From Microcaldota archaeon (GTDB lineage: Archaea > Micrarchaeota > Micrarchaeia > Anstonellales > Bilamarchaeaceae): a stretch of 15,904 nt of DNA. The position numbers and the translations under genes were made by a program. Below, piece after piece: positions 20-15,304 of this stretch (within the stretch, counting starts at the first letter, position 1; every line of letters begins with the position of its first letter). The notes under the pieces were generated by a model, which saw nothing but the letters and a program-made list of their open reading frames with translations, had not been told where the DNA came from and did no database searches. The stretch covers positions 1 through 15,904 of the forward strand of contig DUGF01000101.1 in the NCBI GenBank assembly GCA_013331535.1. The letters are read 5' to 3'.

Positions 20-61
20 GTTGTACCGCAATAGATAGATTACATTAGCCCCGTCGTCTAG

Positions 62-121
62 TGTGTCCTGTGTCTCAAGTCCCGCGTCCAGAACGCGAAA
101 CGCTAAACAGGAAACAGACTT
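62..121 (+). other. D-loop intron of tRNA-Gln (60 nt)
   Basis: The junctions come from a BHB-like fold. The central helix GTCT (56-59) pairs with AGAC (116-119). The 5' bulge AGT (60-62) is cut after G61 and the 3' bulge TTT (120-122) after T121. The inner helix begins G63-C115, T64-A114 and, after one mismatch, continues TCCTGT (66-71)/ACAGGA (107-112). Inside it a second hairpin, CGCGT (83-87)/ACGCG (93-97), closes the intron. The outer helix is weak (C55-G123 only), so this is a relaxed BHB. Removal restores a normal D-loop after position 15. Confidence 0.85.
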
Positions 122-144
122 TGGTCAAGGATGACAGGCTCTGG

Positions 145-177
145 CTTATTGAAGTTTCAAAACTTCAAGAAAGAGAA
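145..177 (+). other. Canonical anticodon-loop intron of tRNA-Gln (33 nt)
   Basis: The intron lies between tRNA positions 37 and 38. A textbook BHB is visible: anticodon stem as outer helix, central helix CTCT (139-142)/AGAG (172-175), 3-nt bulges GGC (143-145) and AAA (176-178). The inner helix TTATTGAAGT pairs with ACTTCAAGAA with one mismatch (A148/G169). Cutting after the second base of each bulge gives the loop CTCTGGA. Confidence 0.92.
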
Positions 178-215
178 ACCTGTATACGTCGGTTCGAATC
201 CGATCGGGGCTATAA

Positions 216-4184: not shown

Positions 4185-4229
4185 TAACGGTTATCCCTTG
4201 AAGCAGCTACCCCCAGGCACAACCATATA

Positions 4230-4239
4230 ATTTTTAAAC
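4230..4239 (+). promoter_or_regulatory. TATA-like box upstream of tRNA-Lys
   Basis: ATTTTTAAAC is centred near 4235 and predicts transcription from about 4261, a leader of about 21 nt before the tRNA at 4282. CTTAAAATA (4255-4263) is an alternative but would start inside the tRNA. The 145-bp alaS/tRNA-Lys spacer holds these divergent promoters and nothing else I can support. Confidence 0.4.
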
Positions 4240-4298
4240 AGAATTCGACTCATTCTTAAAATACCGTTTACTCTTAGCTGTGGGCCCGTAACTCAGCT

Positions 4299-4381
4299 AG
4301 AACCTTTTGACTTCTGAAACCATAGGGCAAAACGTTTCATCGAAAAGCCCTTAGACGGCATAAGTCATTTGGTTCCTGGAT
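4299..4381 (+). other. D-loop intron of tRNA-Lys (83 nt)
   Basis: BHB-like fold: central helix TCAG (4293-4296)/CTGG (4376-4379, one T-G wobble), 5' bulge CTA cut after T4298, 3' bulge ATT cut after T4381. The inner helix GAACC (4300-4304)/GGTTC (4371-4375) is perfect and continues, after a 3x3 internal loop, with TGACTT (4308-4313)/AAGTCA (4362-4367). The distal part can pair GGGC (4325-4328) with GCCC (4347-4350). The outer helix is minimal, as in the tRNA-Gln D-loop intron. Confidence 0.87.
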
Positions 4382-4402
4382 TGGTAGAGTGCCGGACTCT
4401 TA

Positions 4403-4442
4403 GAGTCTTTGGTCTTGAGTTTTGAGTCCTGAGATTTAAGAA
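4403..4442 (+). other. Anticodon-loop intron of tRNA-Lys (40 nt)
   Basis: Placed at the canonical 37/38 site because removal gives the 7-nt loop CTCTTAA between the paired anticodon stem halves. The BHB is not perfect here: CTTA (4399-4402) can pair with TAAG (4437-4440), but this is shifted by two bases from the ideal register. A competing local hairpin GACTC/GAGTC (4395-4407) also exists. The junction may be off by one base because of flanking A residues. Confidence 0.75.
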
Positions 4443-4464
4443 ATCCGTTTGCCAAGGGTTCAAA

Positions 4465-4543
4465 GAGCCCTTCGGGGGGAGTCCCCCCTAAAGTGCTTCA
4501 CCCCCAGCAACCCCCCTTAAATAGGGAAGGACTGGAATGAAAA
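4465..4543 (+). other. T-loop intron of tRNA-Lys (79 nt, after position 59)
   Basis: Outer helix is the T-stem itself. Central helix TTCA (4459-4462) pairs perfectly with TGAA (4538-4541). Bulges AAG (4463-4465) and AAT (4542-4544) put the cuts after A4464 and A4543, leaving the loop TTCAAAT. Inner pairing is AG (4466-4467)/CT (4532-4533) and CCTTC (4469-4473)/GAAGG (4526-4530), with four unpaired bases before the central helix on the 3' side. A G6/C6 hairpin (4474-4479/4483-4488) lies within. It contains a 9-bp copy of the following exon sequence (see repeat). Confidence 0.85.
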
Positions 4544-4553
4544 TCCCTTCGGG
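4468..4553 (+). repeat. 9-bp direct repeat CCCTTCGGG across the T-loop intron
   Basis: CCCTTCGGG occurs at 4468-4476 inside the intron and at 4545-4553 in the last tRNA exon (T-stem 3' half plus the start of the acceptor 3' strand). Only the second copy continues into CCC, which completes the acceptor stem. The spacing is 77 bp. Confidence 0.8.
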
Positions 4554-7326
4554 CCCGCTTTCTGTTTTTAGCCTTTGGCATCTTCGAGAATACAGTGGAA
4601 GATGTGGATATTTTCTTCTTTGGCACAATCACTCTCCCGAAATTCTCATTAAAAGGAGAAGCAACACGAAACGGAGATGTAAAATGAATGGCCGCCCTTC
4701 TTGAGAGACGACCGACTGCAAATTTCGGAGTTCCCAATGTTTTTTGCCCAGTGCGAATAGATGAAACCGGAGTGTGGAATTTTTTATCGAAAACAACACT
4801 GAGTTTTGGTTTTGCAATTTTCAGATTGTCGGATTTCCGATTTTCTTTTTTTGAACGGAAACGAGATGAGAAGGCGGATGATACATGCACCATTGGTTTT
4901 TCTTTTTGTGACTTTTCTCTTCGGAATGCTGCTTTTGGTTTTATAGGTGCAATTTTTGATACAACTGTTTTTTGTCTTTTCGAAACTTGTTTTTCCGCTT
5001 TTGGAGAGTTTAATTTTTGTGGAACCGCTTTCTGGTTTTTTACTCTCTTTAAATCTGTTTTATGCGGACCCGTCTTTTTGATTTTTTCTTTCTGCGAATC
5101 CACTCGTTGTAGATTGAATTTTTGTGAATCAATTCTTTGTGTTCGTTTCTTGGCTTTTCTTTTTTCCAAAGGATTATTTAATTTGATTTCTTTAAGAGGT
5201 TCACGCTTTGAGAATTTTCTTCCTGGTTTTTCCTGAGGATTTGATGGTTTTCTGGATTTCTTTTTGGTTTTGGGGATTTCTGATGTTACTGCCTTCTTTG
5301 GAATGTTTTCAGTAGCGTGCGGTTCTTTCCATTTTGGTTTAATCGAAGGCTTGACAGTTGGCTTGGCCAAAAATTTCTTTCTGGAATCCGAAACACGTGG
5401 AACTTCATTTGAAATTTTCGGTTGATGGAACCTAGAGTCTGCAACGCCTCTCTTTTTTCTGTGGGTTTGAACATACGTCTGAACAGGACCGGTGTTTGAA
5501 CGAACCGACTTTTCAGATCTTGCAAATGATACGATCTTCTGAGCTCTTCGCTGCGACACATTTCTTGGATTCGAAACAACTATTCCTTCTTCTGGTTTTC
5601 TTTCAATCGCGGTTTGCGGTAAAAACGAGGACGTCGTGGTCCGGATCTTTTCAGGCATTCGCGGTGTAGTTTGCAGAACAGTTTCATACCTGACAGCAGA
5701 AATAGAAACTGCTTCAGAAACTGTTTTTTGAATCAAAGTGGCAGAAGAATGTGGAATGAATGGAACGGATTGTGGCGGTTGAGAAACCTTGTGTGAAACG
5801 AATGTGCTCGGCGCATTGAAAGGGTTGGCACGGGATTGGCTAAATCCCGATGCAGGAATAATGCGCATCGGTTCAATTTTGGTATCCGCAACTAAAGCGC
5901 GGGATGAAATTAAGGAAGGCACAACCGATTGCAACAACGTAGATATAGTTACCCTGACAACGAAATCGCGAAGAGATTGAGAAGAAGAAGTCGCTACTAT
6001 ATGAAACGGGGATTGAATCGTTTGAAGAACACGTGTAGGTTGAACCGCTGGAAGGATAGGTGGAGATGGAACTGTTGGAAGCTGGACTGTAGTTGCGGGG
6101 GCGATGGTTTGTTTAACAGGTGACTCTTTAGAAGAAACAGAAGAAACAAAAGAACCGAAAGAGGAAGAATCGATGGAAACAACACTCTGTGACGCTGATG
6201 CAGTCTGTGCGTTTTCTGAAAGAAACTGAGCCCTGGTGGTGTTTACAGTTTCGGAAGAAGCAGAAACAAACGGAAGAAAATCCGAACGAAAGGAAGATGG
6301 AGTCGTGCCGTGTACGTGTTGCGATTGTACCGGTTGCGAATTTTGAGAGCCGCCCGATGACGCGGAGATTGACACAGATATTGGCAAGGACGAGACCGCA
6401 GGTGCCTGAAGCTGGATAGATTGAACCGACAAATTCTGCAATGTCAATTGTTGCAATACGAACTCATCTTTTCCTGAGAATTTACCATCCTTTTGTAACA
6501 AAAAGTCCTGTTTCTCGATAGACGCTGTGTTTGTTGAAGGATTGAAGGTTCCAGGAATGTAAATTTCGGATTCCTTTTGTTGAATAAGCTTGGCATCCAT
6601 GTCATCTCTATGGGCACTACCGCCACCAACCGCTTTAGTTTGACTGATAGACTTATACACCTCTGTGTTTCTCACATTTGCATCATATACAGAACCAAGT
6701 AAGTAATCCCGATTTGCATTTTGCAGTTTTATCTCGTTTGGTTCTGTATAGATCGATCCAAATTTGTTATTTGGATCAGGATATTGAATACTCCTGGCAT
6801 CATTTGGTGCGAAAAACATAGCACCTGAATTTGAAGAAGCTGGATGAACTGAAGTTGAAACTCCGTCATAAAACTTCGCGTTAAGGCTCCGAACTGAATC
6901 TGCATCAAGAAGTTGGAACAGATCATCTGGAAGGGCCTTTGTCATTCCGACATCATCACGAAGGAAAAAATTGAACACTTCCGCCCCGGAGAGAAATATA
7001 GAAGTAAGGTTCTCATAAAGAACTTCACTATTACGAAGAAACCGGACGCACATTTCGACTTCACTATCGCTTTCTCCGCCGCGCATTGAATAAAACTGAA
7101 TCCAATCCTTGAGACGAATTCCTCCAATTTCAACCTCTTTCAGATAATGCTTCATCATTTCTTGGCTGAACTCAACGTTGCAGTTCCCTCCATGTTGCTT
7201 TACTACATCCATTATTCCTTCTAGAAGCGTAATTCCCTCTCTTACAAAACCGCTTATTGCCCTGCGATGGCCTGTGCGGTCCTGAACATGAAGTTTTAGT
7301 AGAACAAGTTGATTAGAACTAGACAT
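4498..7326 (-). CDS. Large low-complexity protein with basic C-terminal tail (942 aa)
   Basis: I do not recognise this protein. Residues 1 to about 150 look like a folded helical domain. Residues about 160-560 are rich in Ser, Thr, Gln, Pro and Val and probably disordered. From about 570 to the end the chain is very rich in Lys and Arg, with loosely repeated short units such as RIDSQKFN, RVDSQKEK and HKTDLKRVK (about 731-762). There is no signal peptide or membrane helix, so it is probably cytoplasmic; the tail suggests nucleic-acid, ribosome or membrane-surface binding (inference). I start at ATG 7326 because TATAAAAA on this strand (7350-7357) is centred 27 nt upstream, fitting a leaderless mRNA; an upstream in-frame TTG at 7335 would add three residues. 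The stop codon lies inside the tRNA-Lys T-loop intron, and a CGG GCC CGA AGG stretch (RARR) is antisense to the tRNA's last exon. Confidence 0.75.
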   Translation of the reverse strand: MSSSNQLVLLKLHVQDRTGHRRAISGFVREGITLLEGIMDVVKQHGGNCNVEFSQEMMKHYLKEVEIGGIRLKDWIQFYSMRGGESDSEVEMCVRFLRNSEVLYENLTSIFLSGAEVFNFFLRDDVGMTKALPDDLFQLLDADSVRSLNAKFYDGVSTSVHPASSNSGAMFFAPNDARSIQYPDPNNKFGSIYTEPNEIKLQNANRDYLLGSVYDANVRNTEVYKSISQTKAVGGGSAHRDDMDAKLIQQKESEIYIPGTFNPSTNTASIEKQDFLLQKDGKFSGKDEFVLQQLTLQNLSVQSIQLQAPAVSSLPISVSISASSGGSQNSQPVQSQHVHGTTPSSFRSDFLPFVSASSETVNTTRAQFLSENAQTASASQSVVSIDSSSFGSFVSSVSSKESPVKQTIAPATTVQLPTVPSPPILPAVQPTRVLQTIQSPFHIVATSSSQSLRDFVVRVTISTLLQSVVPSLISSRALVADTKIEPMRIIPASGFSQSRANPFNAPSTFVSHKVSQPPQSVPFIPHSSATLIQKTVSEAVSISAVRYETVLQTTPRMPEKIRTTTSSFLPQTAIERKPEEGIVVSNPRNVSQRRAQKIVSFARSEKSVRSNTGPVQTYVQTHRKKRGVADSRFHQPKISNEVPRVSDSRKKFLAKPTVKPSIKPKWKEPHATENIPKKAVTSEIPKTKKKSRKPSNPQEKPGRKFSKREPLKEIKLNNPLEKRKAKKRTQRIDSQKFNLQRVDSQKEKIKKTGPHKTDLKRVKNQKAVPQKLNSPKAEKQVSKRQKTVVSKIAPIKPKAAFRREKSQKEKPMVHVSSAFSSRFRSKKENRKSDNLKIAKPKLSVVFDKKFHTPVSSIRTGQKTLGTPKFAVGRLSRRAAIHFTSPFRVASPFNENFGRVIVPKKKISTSSTVFSKMPKAKNRKRARRDFHSSPSLFKGGCWG

Positions 7327-7349
7327 ATCAGCCAATTAGAATATTTGGA

Positions 7350-10626: not shown

Positions 10627-11130
10627 TCAGCCCTTTGTTTTGATATACTTGAACGCGTCGTGTCCTGCATGGACTTTAACATAATTCTTCACGAACGCAA
10701 GAAATGCGCGCGGCTTTTCAACAACAAGTCTTCCGTCACGCACCCGCGCACCAAAACCAAGCCTGATGAGAATCATTTCATCCTGTTTTCTAGGCCGGTC
10801 GATATACACAAATCCCTTTACATCAATCCCGCCTGCGGAATCAAACATTCCGGCAAGATAACTTGCGGCGTATTCATTCAGATATTTGAACCGCTCGAGC
10901 TGCTCGTCTTCAACATCCTGAAAGAATTTTCTATATGCAGTATGGTAAAAGTAAACGCTATCTGCATTTGCCAGCAACTTATCGGACGTGGTAAGACCTC
11001 TCTCAAGTATCTCTTTGGAAAAAATCTCACAGAATGAACTGTCACCATAAACTCCAATGCCCTCTTTTGTCCTGCGCTTGCGCCAGAAACCAATTATATA
11101 TGAAAGTTCGGGAGTAAGTTTGATTTTCAT
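10627..11130 (-). CDS. Degenerate LAGLIDADG-family protein (167 aa)
   Basis: The protein resembles a free-standing LAGLIDADG homing endonuclease with two motif helices: LSYIIGFWRKRR (9-20) and YLAGMFDSAGGI (91-102). The second is followed by a typical beta-rich segment (VKGFVYIDRPRKQDEMILIRLGFGARVRD broken over 104-132). In active enzymes each motif ends with an acidic residue, as in LAGxxDxDG. Here the last acidic position of motif 2 is Ala99 and motif 1 has basic residues instead. I infer it no longer cuts DNA and may act as a DNA- or RNA-binding protein, as proposed for other domesticated members such as WhiA. TTTATATT on this strand (11153-11160) is centred 26 nt before the ATG, fitting leaderless expression. 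A GGTGA 7 nt before the ATG is the alternative signal. It stands alone between two gaps. Confidence 0.7.
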   Translation of the reverse strand: MKIKLTPELSYIIGFWRKRRTKEGIGVYGDSSFCEIFSKEILERGLTTSDKLLANADSVYFYHTAYRKFFQDVEDEQLERFKYLNEYAASYLAGMFDSAGGIDVKGFVYIDRPRKQDEMILIRLGFGARVRDGRLVVEKPRAFLAFVKNYVKVHAGHDAFKYIKTKG

Positions 11131-13957: not shown

Positions 13958-15304
13958 ATGCAGGTTTCACGGATTTTAAAGAACGTACTTGAACGGATTT
14001 CGCCAACAAAAGCAGAAATTGATGCTGAAAAAAGGTTCGCAGAGGAAAGTATGAACAAACTCGGGAACCATGTTCCAGACGGAGCGCACGTAATGTTAAT
14101 GGGATCTGTTGCAAAGGGAACATTCCTGCGCGGCAATATGGATGTGGATATATTTATTCTGCTTCCAAAAACTGTCCGGCAGGATGAATTTGAGGGAATT
14201 GCAAAAAGAGCAGCTGTTGGTGCGTTCCCTGATGCAAGACTTGTTATAAGGTACTCACAGCATCCATACGTAAGTATTTATGCAAAATTCGAAGAGGAAG
14301 AAAGAAAACTAGACATCGTTCCGGCTTATGAAATAAAAACCGCAAGTGAACGAGTGACTGCGGTTGACCGAACCACATTACATGTAAAATACATTTACAA
14401 AAATCTAAAACGCAGCGCAATTCCAGACGTGCGGCTTCTTAAAAAATTTCTTAGGGCCGCAGGAGCATATGGGGCAGAGATAAGGGTTGAGGGTTTTTCC
14501 GGGTATCTTTGTGAACTTTTGATAATAAAGTACGGAAACTTTATGCGTTTCCTGCGTGAGGCGGCAAAATGGAAAACACCAGCACATGGAGGGAGCGGGA
14601 AGAGTATCTTGATAATTGATCTTGCAAAGCATTATCCTCTGGAACTTTACCCTAGACTAATTGAAAAATTCAAGGACTCGCGAATGATTGTTATAGACCC
14701 GACTGACAAAAACCGCAATGTTGCTGCTATTGTTTCCAGGGAAAGCATACGAAGAATATCATTGGCTGCACGTGCTTTCATAAAGGCACCAACTGAAAAA
14801 TCTTTTTTCAGAACCGAAGATGAGATAATAACGGAAAAAATGAATTCTCTGAACAAGAGAAGTGGAAAAACTTATGCGATAGTATTTCCTGCGCCGCGCG
14901 TTCCCGAGGATGTATTATGGGGGCAGCTGAAAAGAATGGCAAAGGACTTAGTAAATTATCTGGAAAAAAATGACTTTGAAGCAAGTGGAATTATTGCAGA
15001 TGCAGATGAGAAAGAAGCAAAAATTTACATTGGAGTGAAAACAGAAACACTCGACAAAATACGGCTGATGCCCGGACCTCCTGTAAAAAAGGAATTTGCA
15101 AAGAACCTTGATGAGTTCAAAAAGGCGCACCCAAAAGCAAGAATCGTAATAAAAAAGAGGAAGGCATTTGCAGAAGTCAAAAGAAGCCTGAGAAATGCGA
15201 ATGACGCAATTTTAATGTTCTTCAAAACCAGGGTTTTACCATCTCATTTTATAGAGAAAAGAGGGATGATAAAAATAAAAAACGGGAATATGGGAAAAAA
15301 ATGA
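13958..15304 (+). CDS. cca: CCA-adding enzyme, archaeal class I
   Basis: Adds or repairs the 3' CCA of tRNAs without a nucleic-acid template. Both tRNA genes here lack an encoded CCA and need it. At 448 aa it has the usual archaeal length. The nucleotidyltransferase motif is clear: Gly49-Ser50 in MLMGSVAKGTFLRG, then Asp62 and Asp64 (MDVDIFI), with the third carboxylate at Asp119 (KLDIVPAY). The central part (about 155-190) contains the class I signature VRLLKKFLRAAGAYGAE followed by GFSGYLCELLIIKYG. C-terminal body and tail domains follow. The ATG is supported by the TATA-like box 26 nt upstream. The gene's TGA overlaps the ATG of the following lipoprotein gene (ATGA), so the two are likely translationally coupled. 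Confidence 0.97.
   Translation: MQVSRILKNVLERISPTKAEIDAEKRFAEESMNKLGNHVPDGAHVMLMGSVAKGTFLRGNMDVDIFILLPKTVRQDEFEGIAKRAAVGAFPDARLVIRYSQHPYVSIYAKFEEEERKLDIVPAYEIKTASERVTAVDRTTLHVKYIYKNLKRSAIPDVRLLKKFLRAAGAYGAEIRVEGFSGYLCELLIIKYGNFMRFLREAAKWKTPAHGGSGKSILIIDLAKHYPLELYPRLIEKFKDSRMIVIDPTDKNRNVAAIVSRESIRRISLAARAFIKAPTEKSFFRTEDEIITEKMNSLNKRSGKTYAIVFPAPRVPEDVLWGQLKRMAKDLVNYLEKNDFEASGIIADADEKEAKIYIGVKTETLDKIRLMPGPPVKKEFAKNLDEFKKAHPKARIVIKKRKAFAEVKRSLRNANDAILMFFKTRVLPSHFIEKRGMIKIKNGNMGKK

Follow-up and report, generated by a model that had tools for sequence, protein, structure and literature searches.

A tRNA-Lys(CUU) gene with three introns, and a structured family of tRNA introns, in a Micrarchaeota-type genome

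Introns of tRNA genes in the Thermoproteales occupy positions among which 59/60 is listed, their junctions form bulge-helix-bulge (BHB) or relaxed BHB motifs, and similar introns are found in different tRNAs (PMC4090602, PMC4033280, PMC8450103). Among the genomes assessed in PMC8450103 Pyrobaculum calidifontis has the most, with 71 introns in 46 tRNAs (1.54 per gene). Closely similar introns are known in unrelated tRNAs and at unrelated positions, by a mechanism that PMC4090602 describes as still unknown. Multiple introns per tRNA are also listed for ARMAN-1 and ARMAN-2 (PMC4033280), and the epsilon2 type of splicing endonuclease, to which the ARMAN-2 enzyme 4FZ2 belongs, cuts relaxed motifs (PMC12397907).

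The window described here, by which we mean the whole stretch of 15,904 nucleotides that was analysed, contains a tRNA-Lys(CUU) gene in four pieces. Removal of 83, 40 and 79 nt from positions 4282-4557 leaves 74 nt, which ARAGORN calls as tRNA-Lys(ctt), in agreement with an earlier note that had placed introns of these lengths in the D, anticodon and T loops. ARAGORN finds no tRNA in the unspliced stretch, and in the raw window neither it nor Rfam reports anything at this locus, as is expected with three introns. The acceptor, D and T stems of the joined 74-mer are perfect, as the same note had claimed, and the anticodon stem has a single C-U mismatch (27-43), which is not a sign of decay because the orthologue in the related genome G009 has the same mismatch. 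On the opposite strand, the 3′ end of a 945-aa open frame without a Pfam match overlaps exon 4 and the last part of the T-loop intron. The second disrupted tRNA of the window, tRNA-Gln(CUG), scores 28.3 with an intron-tolerant finder (29.3 at lower intron cost) and has a weak Rfam match of 16.6 bits at 137-212.

Table 1. Positions of the tRNA-Lys(CUU) exons, introns and predicted splice motifs, and of the second disrupted tRNA, numbered by the window
Feature	Positions	Strand	Remarks
tRNA-Gln(CUG)	47..212	+	second disrupted tRNA; D-loop and anticodon-loop introns; intron-tolerant finder
Exon 1, tRNA-Lys(CUU)	4282..4298	+	5′ strands of acceptor and D stems, AGCU
D-site BHB-like motif, 5′ side	4293..4299	+	UCAG 4293-4296, bulge CUA 4297-4299; whole-transcript minimum-energy fold
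D-loop intron, 83 nt	4299..4381	+	R1 structured core at 4303-4366
D-site motif, 3′ side	4371..4382	+	GGUUC 4371-4375, CUGG 4376-4379, bulge AUU 4380-4382; whole-transcript minimum-energy fold
Exon 2	4382..4402	+	D-loop GG, 3′ strand of D stem, 5′ strand of anticodon stem, CUCUUA with anticodon CUU
Anticodon-loop intron, 40 nt	4403..4442	+	canonical 37/38; missing from G009 orthologue
Exon 3	4443..4464	+	3′ strand of anticodon stem, variable region, 5′ strand of T stem, UUCAAA
T-site BHB, 5′ side	4459..4465	+	UUCA 4459-4462, bulge AAG 4463-4465; local minimum-energy fold
T-loop intron, 79 nt	4465..4543	+	at 59/60; 4460-4523 resembles dispersed repeat of G020, G023
T-site BHB, 3′ side	4538..4544	+	UGAA 4538-4541, bulge AAU 4542-4544; local minimum-energy fold
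Exon 4	4544..4557	+	3′ strands of T and acceptor stems, discriminator G

The earlier note had also described BHB-like folds at the D and T junctions. The T junction forms one in the local minimum-energy fold, where the T stem, a 3-nt bulge AA^U, the 4-bp helix UUCA/UGAA and a bulge AA^G make up a nearly full BHB. For the D junction the description is correct in the whole-transcript fold, in which UCAG/CUGG, a bulge CU^A and GAACC/GGUUC appear without an outer helix (HBh′ type), but not in the local fold, from which the motif is absent. At the anticodon site (37/38) the fold is distorted, with the 5′ bulge paired away, and is not a textbook BHB. Repeated bases at the junctions leave the exact cleavage positions uncertain by 1-3 nt, and the mature tRNA is unchanged either way.

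The host genome encodes candidates for the enzymes that such a gene would need. When 47 relatives of a single marker protein, AlaRS, are ranked by identity, three from Candidatus Micrarchaeota MAGs come first at 61-65%, followed by one at 50%; this ranking bears out the proposal of an ARMAN/Micrarchaeota-type genome, and the predicted broad-specificity epsilon2 endonuclease has a matching candidate as well. The sole PF01974 match in the genome is an EndA of 393 aa, of which residues 3-393 align with residues 4-387 of 4fz2 (E=1.7e-136), and the residues that match the catalytic Y236, H251 and K282 and the ARMAN-specific-loop Y160 and K161 (numbering of PMC12397907) are all identical. This end-to-end similarity supports the assignment of EndA as a predicted ARMAN-2-type epsilon2 endonuclease. 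A gene for RtcB is found in the genome, and one for an archaeal CCA-adding enzyme lies in the window at 13958-15304. A LAGLIDADG reading of an open frame at 10627-11130 was dropped for want of a Pfam or NCBIfam match.

The reading we favour, to which we give a probability of roughly 0.9, is that this is a working gene for tRNA-Lys(CUU) from which three introns are spliced, and that these introns come from multiplied families. A single 276-nt pre-tRNA would be transcribed, the epsilon2-type endonuclease would cut it at three BHB-like sites (in the D loop, in the anticodon loop at 37/38 and in the T loop at 59/60), RtcB would join the four exons and the CCA-adding enzyme would finish the molecule; the introns themselves would belong to families that have proliferated among the tRNA genes of this archaeal family. 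Transcription, cleavage, ligation and the movement of introns as units are steps that we infer from sequence and predicted folds.

Disruption of tRNA genes is the rule in this genome. Among 26 tRNAs that could be reconstructed, one has no intron, seven have one, 13 have two and five have three (counted by hand from the finder table), such that 25 of the 26 are interrupted, compared with no finder match scoring 24 or more in 105 kb of shuffled sequence; three introns in one tRNA, described as rare in the earlier note, are thus not exceptional here. The 48 introns correspond to 1.85 per tRNA in what is a biased sample. The census leaves out a tRNA-Ala(GGC)-like 5′ part on contig C61, for which none of five exact 3′-end motifs occurs within the next 900 nt. 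The Rfam cut-off is passed at five places in this genome and at 45 in the relative G020; across the archaeal family some genomes have about 42 readable tRNAs and others 1-4, and the presence of R1 introns, described below, accompanies fewer readable tRNAs. Standard tools miss most tRNAs here, and such genomes can seem to be without tRNAs.

The D-loop intron of tRNA-Lys(CUU) belongs to a family of structured, covarying introns (model R1), of which we found no description in the literature searched. R1 matches occur in 25 of 43 genomes of the same archaeal family; with a stricter threshold, and at the sensitivity of the scan, none of 41 other genomes of the order has one. Since only part of the first-look candidates were scored (up to 121 per genome; 62 in the other scan) these counts are lower bounds. 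The core spans seven genera at E<=0.001 and nine at E<=0.05. It consists of a stem of 5 bp that covaries, a U-tract and two A-tracts of matched length, and it probably folds as an H-type pseudoknot on which an A-rich strand is docked. After duplicates were merged and one antisense row removed the set holds 58 sequences, 56 of which carry both tracts; in a shuffle test one of five measures is weaker, with 21 of 500 shuffles equalling the count of pairs changed on both sides. From 57 matches examined, 47 are in a tRNA loop (D, anticodon or T) and two are inside 16S rRNA genes. L231, L086, L212, which adjoins a tRNA at its 3′ end, and L221, a weak match with E=0.0075, were placed in neither. Homologous introns occupy all three loop positions in different tRNAs. 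No C box of a box C/D guide RNA was seen by eye in the D-loop intron, and a group I reading of the locus was rejected, with no group I covariance model reaching its gathering score across the window and three matches in 4200-4620 (E up to 10) of which none is an intron.

The T-loop intron has relatives of another kind, which also occur outside tRNAs. Its region is 95% identical over 57 nt (E=1.9e-19) to a dispersed repeat on contig C32 of G020, a genome with at least 18 matches (18 of 33 first-look candidates scored); the repeat is GC-rich and of low complexity, and the own genome has one further copy, beyond matches of 17 nt or less. Flanking direct repeats of 19-53 nt accompany five of 21 copies when each is compared with 20 shuffles, and the flanks vary; the copy in the window has no flanking direct repeat. 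Left uncounted are L124 and L128, which are one point over their own shuffles with direct repeats that do not abut the element, and L116, whose 10-nt abutting repeat is no better than shuffles. IS200/IS605-type elements have a fixed flanking target and make no target duplication, and an origin from them was set aside in view of the direct repeats and varying flanks. On five repeat-bearing stretches Rfam yields an adjacent tRNA and three weak matches that fall short of the family cut-offs, and two exact patterns have no matches in viral_contigs, a search that diverged copies would escape.

With three introns placed freely there is considerable freedom to find a cloverleaf by chance, and 300 dinucleotide shuffles of a 441-nt region average 17.5 with a finder that permits introns in the D, anticodon and T loops only (sd 1.5). 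The maximum is 23.3, however, and none of the 300 reaches the 28.3 of the tRNA-Lys locus. The G009 tRNA-Lys(CUU), in which there is no anticodon intron, matches the joined anticodon arm of exons 2 and 3 without a difference over 33 nt, and other tRNAs contain introns homologous to the D-loop intron. We regard a chance cloverleaf as refuted by such orthologues, its probability being negligible. That the locus is a pseudogene broken by insertions, whose role falls to tRNA-Lys(UUU) or to an intact copy missing from the assembly, is a somewhat more serious proposal and still a very improbable one. An intact tRNA-Lys(CUU) elsewhere, which the earlier note had named as the mark of a pseudogene, was not found in the own assembly, although this is 84% complete and could be missing one. 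A tRNA-Lys(UUU) with D and T introns of its own is present on contig C83 and could read AAG by wobble, so the tRNA-Lys(CUU) gene need not be essential, and the distorted fold at the anticodon site also fits a pseudogene. Against this stand the perfect stems formed by the exons, the anticodon-stem mismatch common to G009, and the interruption of nearly all reconstructed tRNAs, as a result of which interruption cannot mean inactivation in this genome.

How the introns came to be similar is a separate matter. The 93% identity between the D-loop introns of two tRNA-Ala genes is explicable by tRNA duplication, and one could suppose that gene duplication with a switch of anticodon, or convergence on one BHB-compatible fold, accounts for all such likeness without transposition. 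This seems unlikely, given that the D-loop intron of Ala(UGC) and the anticodon-loop intron of Asp share 86% identity over 80 nt, that a Ser T-loop intron is 86% identical over 69 nt to the one in the D loop of the incomplete Ala(GGC) gene, and that R1 matches lie inside two 16S rRNA genes. We similarly doubt that the T-loop intron resembles the G020 repeat by chance or through a common GC-rich structural element and not by descent; the composition of the repeat, its single other copy in the own genome and the missing direct repeat in the window would suit that explanation, and the length and strength of the match and the number of copies in G020 speak against it. More tentatively, and with the balance of probability against it, the tRNA introns of this archaeal family may be small transposable RNA elements, in which the core of stem, U-tract and A-tracts moves or is recognised. 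They would invade the D, anticodon and T loops and occasionally 16S rRNA because the broad epsilon2 endonuclease removes introns there, and relatives of the T-loop type would also land outside tRNAs with long target duplications; the outcome, were this so, would be tRNA sets that are almost wholly disrupted in several genomes.

In related genomes the tRNA-Lys(CUU) gene carries anything from zero to three introns, G023 having an intronless gene and G032 and G039 a T intron only, and these provide before-and-after pairs. Together, a definable intron family and uneven tRNA readability offer a handle on how archaeal tRNA introns spread. Among the closest systems in the sources cited are the multi-intron tRNA genes of the Thermoproteales, such as those of P. 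calidifontis and the P. islandicum tRNA-Pro with its three introns; these belong to another lineage and an (alpha-beta)2 endonuclease serves there in place of the predicted epsilon2 enzyme here. The value of 1.54 introns per gene reported for P. calidifontis compares with 1.85 here, in a biased sample of 26 reconstructed tRNAs. Multi-intron tRNAs are shared with ARMAN-1 and ARMAN-2 as listed, and EndA is a full-length homologue of the ARMAN-2 epsilon2 enzyme. What differs from the similar introns already known in unrelated tRNAs is a covarying RNA core that is common to seven genera and extends to two 16S rRNA genes, together with a repeat related to the T-loop intron that occurs outside tRNAs with flanking direct repeats.

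The tRNA-Lys gene at 4282-4557 is composed of four exons and three introns, and the proposal in the earlier note that removal of 83, 40 and 79 nt yields a 74-nt tRNA-Lys(CTT) is borne out by the spliced form. ARAGORN calls the joined exons (74 nt) as tRNA-Lys(ctt) and finds no tRNA in the unspliced 4282-4557, and neither ARAGORN nor Rfam gives a match at this locus in the raw window. Our own cloverleaf search (the finder), which tolerates interruption of the D, anticodon and T loops by a single intron each, scores the locus at 28.3; when the 441-nt region is dinucleotide-shuffled 300 times, the mean is 17.5 (sd 1.5) and the maximum 23.3. The three-intron tRNA-Lys is real, of a known kind and very probably functional. 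The same note had described the D- and T-loop junctions as fitting BHB-like folds, and this holds for the T-loop site, where the local fold contains a 3-nt bulge AA^U, a 4-bp helix UUCA/UGAA and a second bulge AA^G. It holds in part for the D-loop site, where UCAG/CUGG, a bulge CU^A and GAACC/GGUUC form in the whole-transcript fold but not in the local fold, and lack an outer helix. At the anticodon site (37/38) the free fold loses the 5′ bulge to pairing.

Disrupted tRNA genes in the window and R1 introns in 16S rRNA genes of two relatives
Feature	Positions	Strand	Description
tRNA-Gln(CUG)	47-212		D-loop and anticodon-loop introns; second disrupted tRNA in the window (finder)
tRNA-Lys, D-loop intron	4299-4381		83 nt
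tRNA-Lys, anticodon-loop intron	4403-4442		40 nt; canonical site 37/38
tRNA-Lys, T-loop intron	4465-4543		79 nt; site 59/60
R1 intron in 16S rRNA gene	L216 1501-1563	-	Relative G022
R1 intron in 16S rRNA gene	L217 1501-1567	+	Relative G013

An intact tRNA-Lys(CTT) elsewhere, together with a lack of spliced reads from this locus, would mark it as a pseudogene, as the earlier note pointed out; no intact copy was found in the 84%-complete assembly by either a 74-mer search or Rfam. The 74-mer recovers the four pieces of the locus itself and one 14-nt match elsewhere, and of 17 Rfam tRNA hits in the genome the five above the cut-off are Val, Ala, Thr, Phe and Ser by finder anticodon, and not Lys. 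Among relatives, the tRNA-Lys(CTT) of G009 has D- and T-loop introns and no anticodon intron; it shares with the joined window tRNA 33 identical nt across the exon 2/exon 3 junction, the C-U mismatch in the stem included. The counterparts in G032 and G039 have the T-loop intron only, and that of G023 is intronless.

A 945-aa open frame without a Pfam match, 4498-7335 on the reverse strand, has its stop (4498-4500) inside the T-loop intron, and exon 4 is antisense to it, so that the tRNA gene and the open frame overlap at their 3′ ends. A cryptic GTCTTGAGTTT/GGGTCCTG-like repeat is abundant in the anticodon-loop intron and in D-loop introns of L012 and L030; blast of the locus against its genome also matches it at C109:5484, in a stretch not known as tRNA.

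The D-loop intron recurs on four other contigs of the genome (C108, C76, C12, C61; blast of the locus), and a covariance model, R1, was built from nine aligned introns, seven of them from this genome. At E<=0.05 per genome R1 matches in 25 of the 43 genomes and nine of the 13 genera of the family, a count in which about two genomes could be chance matches; the seven copies of this genome that went into the model match of necessity. At E<=0.001 the order as a whole yields 21 matching genomes out of 84, which fall in 7 genera, all within the host family, and none of the 41 genomes of other families matches; as only a part of the candidates was scored, the genome counts are lower bounds. The placement sample comprised 57 distinct matches (23 + 35, one in both), of which the finder puts 47 inside a tRNA loop (D, anticodon or T) and two lie inside archaeal 16S rRNA genes; the same intron family is carried by tRNA and 16S rRNA genes. 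Four more lie in tRNA-like genes that the finder does not close (two each in L239 and L024), and four are unplaced: L231, L086, the weak L221, and L212, which directly follows a tRNA. On contig C61 (L024 from 1357) there is a tRNA-Ala(GGC)-like 5′ part with two R1 introns, one in the D loop and one in the anticodon loop, and its T loop holds a third piece resembling them. No 3′ end was found within the next 900 nt; the tRNA gene may be split, contain a long intron, be a pseudogene or have been misassembled.

The structure of R1 was assessed on a model-based alignment of 61 matches, 59 of them distinct and one of these antisense. Paired cells amount to 90.4% versus 79.2% in shuffles, cells changed on both sides to 49 versus 17.4, and the covariation score to 0.312 versus 0.118, with none of 500 shuffles as high in any of the three; the alignment had been made to fit the structure, and this favours these figures. 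Both-side changes occur in six of eight pairs, a value reached by 21 of 500 shuffles, and when the partners are slid by 1-3 columns no more than 43% of cells pair. In 50 of 56 distinct members the A-tract that follows the first stem strand is as long as the U-tract close to the 5′ end (4/4 or 5/5); the highest count among 20,000 permutations is 42, which is not a clean probability because the members are related. We infer that the R1 core would fold as a pseudoknot. The genome contains at least one structured intron family, R1; no structured tRNA-intron family of Micrarchaeota was seen described in the literature searched, which concerned tRNA introns of archaea, ARMAN, DPANN and Micrarchaeota, their loop positions and mobile introns with structure. 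As this literature was covered incompletely, the novelty is tentative.

Part of the T-loop intron (4460-4523) matches a dispersed repeat with at least 18 copies in G020 (80-96% identity), one in G023 and, besides the window, one in the own genome. Across 19 stretches carrying the repeat (18 from G020, one from G023) the finder sees two tRNAs, with the repeat in neither. A longer form of about 145 nt (e.g. L123 405-560) has seven copies in G020; compared with one of them, the other six show 85-99% identity. Five of 21 copies (the 19 stretches, L021 and the window) have direct repeats of 19-53 nt, one abutting the element and the other starting 8-27 nt beyond it; none was found flanking the window copy. 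By eye, the dispersed repeat and the T-loop R1 introns have the first bases GAGCCCTT and a block AAAGTGCTTCACCCCCA in common, and one appears to descend from the other. Two pairs of introns in the own genome bear on intron movement, each with 86% identity between different loops: Ala(UGC) D loop with Asp anticodon loop, over 80 nt, and the D loop of the incomplete Ala(GGC) gene with the Ser T loop, over 69 nt. A second T-loop intron family of 46 nt, alike by eye, is seen in three different tRNAs, Gln(TTG), Gly(TCC) and Glu(TTC), on contigs C69, C95 and C12.

The assignment to a Micrarchaeota-type genome with an epsilon2-type endonuclease, offered earlier from the window alone, agrees with what the assembly contains. 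Among 47 AlaRS relatives the three best come from Candidatus Micrarchaeota MAGs (61-65% identity), and the sole PF01974 match is a 393-aa protein whose residues 3-393 align with 4fz2 (E=1.7e-136), which PMC12397907 gives as the ARMAN-2 epsilon2 endonuclease; the residues at Y236, H251, K282, Y160 and K161 (numbering of that source) are identical to ARMAN-2. The window's gene content includes archaeal AlaRS, ThrRS and a CCA-adding enzyme. A 167-aa open frame (10627-11130, reverse strand) that looked LAGLIDADG-like has no Pfam or NCBIfam match. The genome also has an RtcB gene, interrupted at C83:893-3691 (L247, L248), where family residues 1-50 and 46-426 are separated by about 1.5 kb within a single open frame of 983 aa; this interruption suggests an intein in the tRNA ligase.

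A finder census of 40 own-genome loci and the window (120.8 kb), which left out own loci overlapping scanned ones, own loci without a match in earlier finder scans and the EndA locus, gave 26 tRNAs scoring 26 or more; for the one on C32 the finder probably misclosed a leucine tRNA. When the 40 loci were shuffled, the resulting 105 kb contained no hits at 24 or more. The 48 introns are distributed as none in one tRNA, one in seven, two in 13 and three in five (Lys CTT, Glu TTC, Asp GTC, Met CAT and Ser CGA); within this genome the three-intron tRNA-Lys is a typical gene. Across the 43 family genomes, each has between 1 and 43 Rfam tRNA matches at E<=1e-7, with four in the own genome; above the curated cut-off it has five, as against 45 in G020. 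Over the family, the number of R1 matches is anticorrelated with that of readable tRNAs (Spearman -0.63, p 7e-6, kinship uncorrected). The tRNA set of this genome is disrupted to an unusual degree. In PMC8450103, introns per gene average 0.21 in the archaea studied and 0.84 in Thermoproteales, and the maximum among the complete genomes assessed is 71 introns in 46 tRNAs, in P. calidifontis; the own genome has 1.85 per tRNA, a figure biased by the picking of loci through tRNA, intron and T-arm searches.
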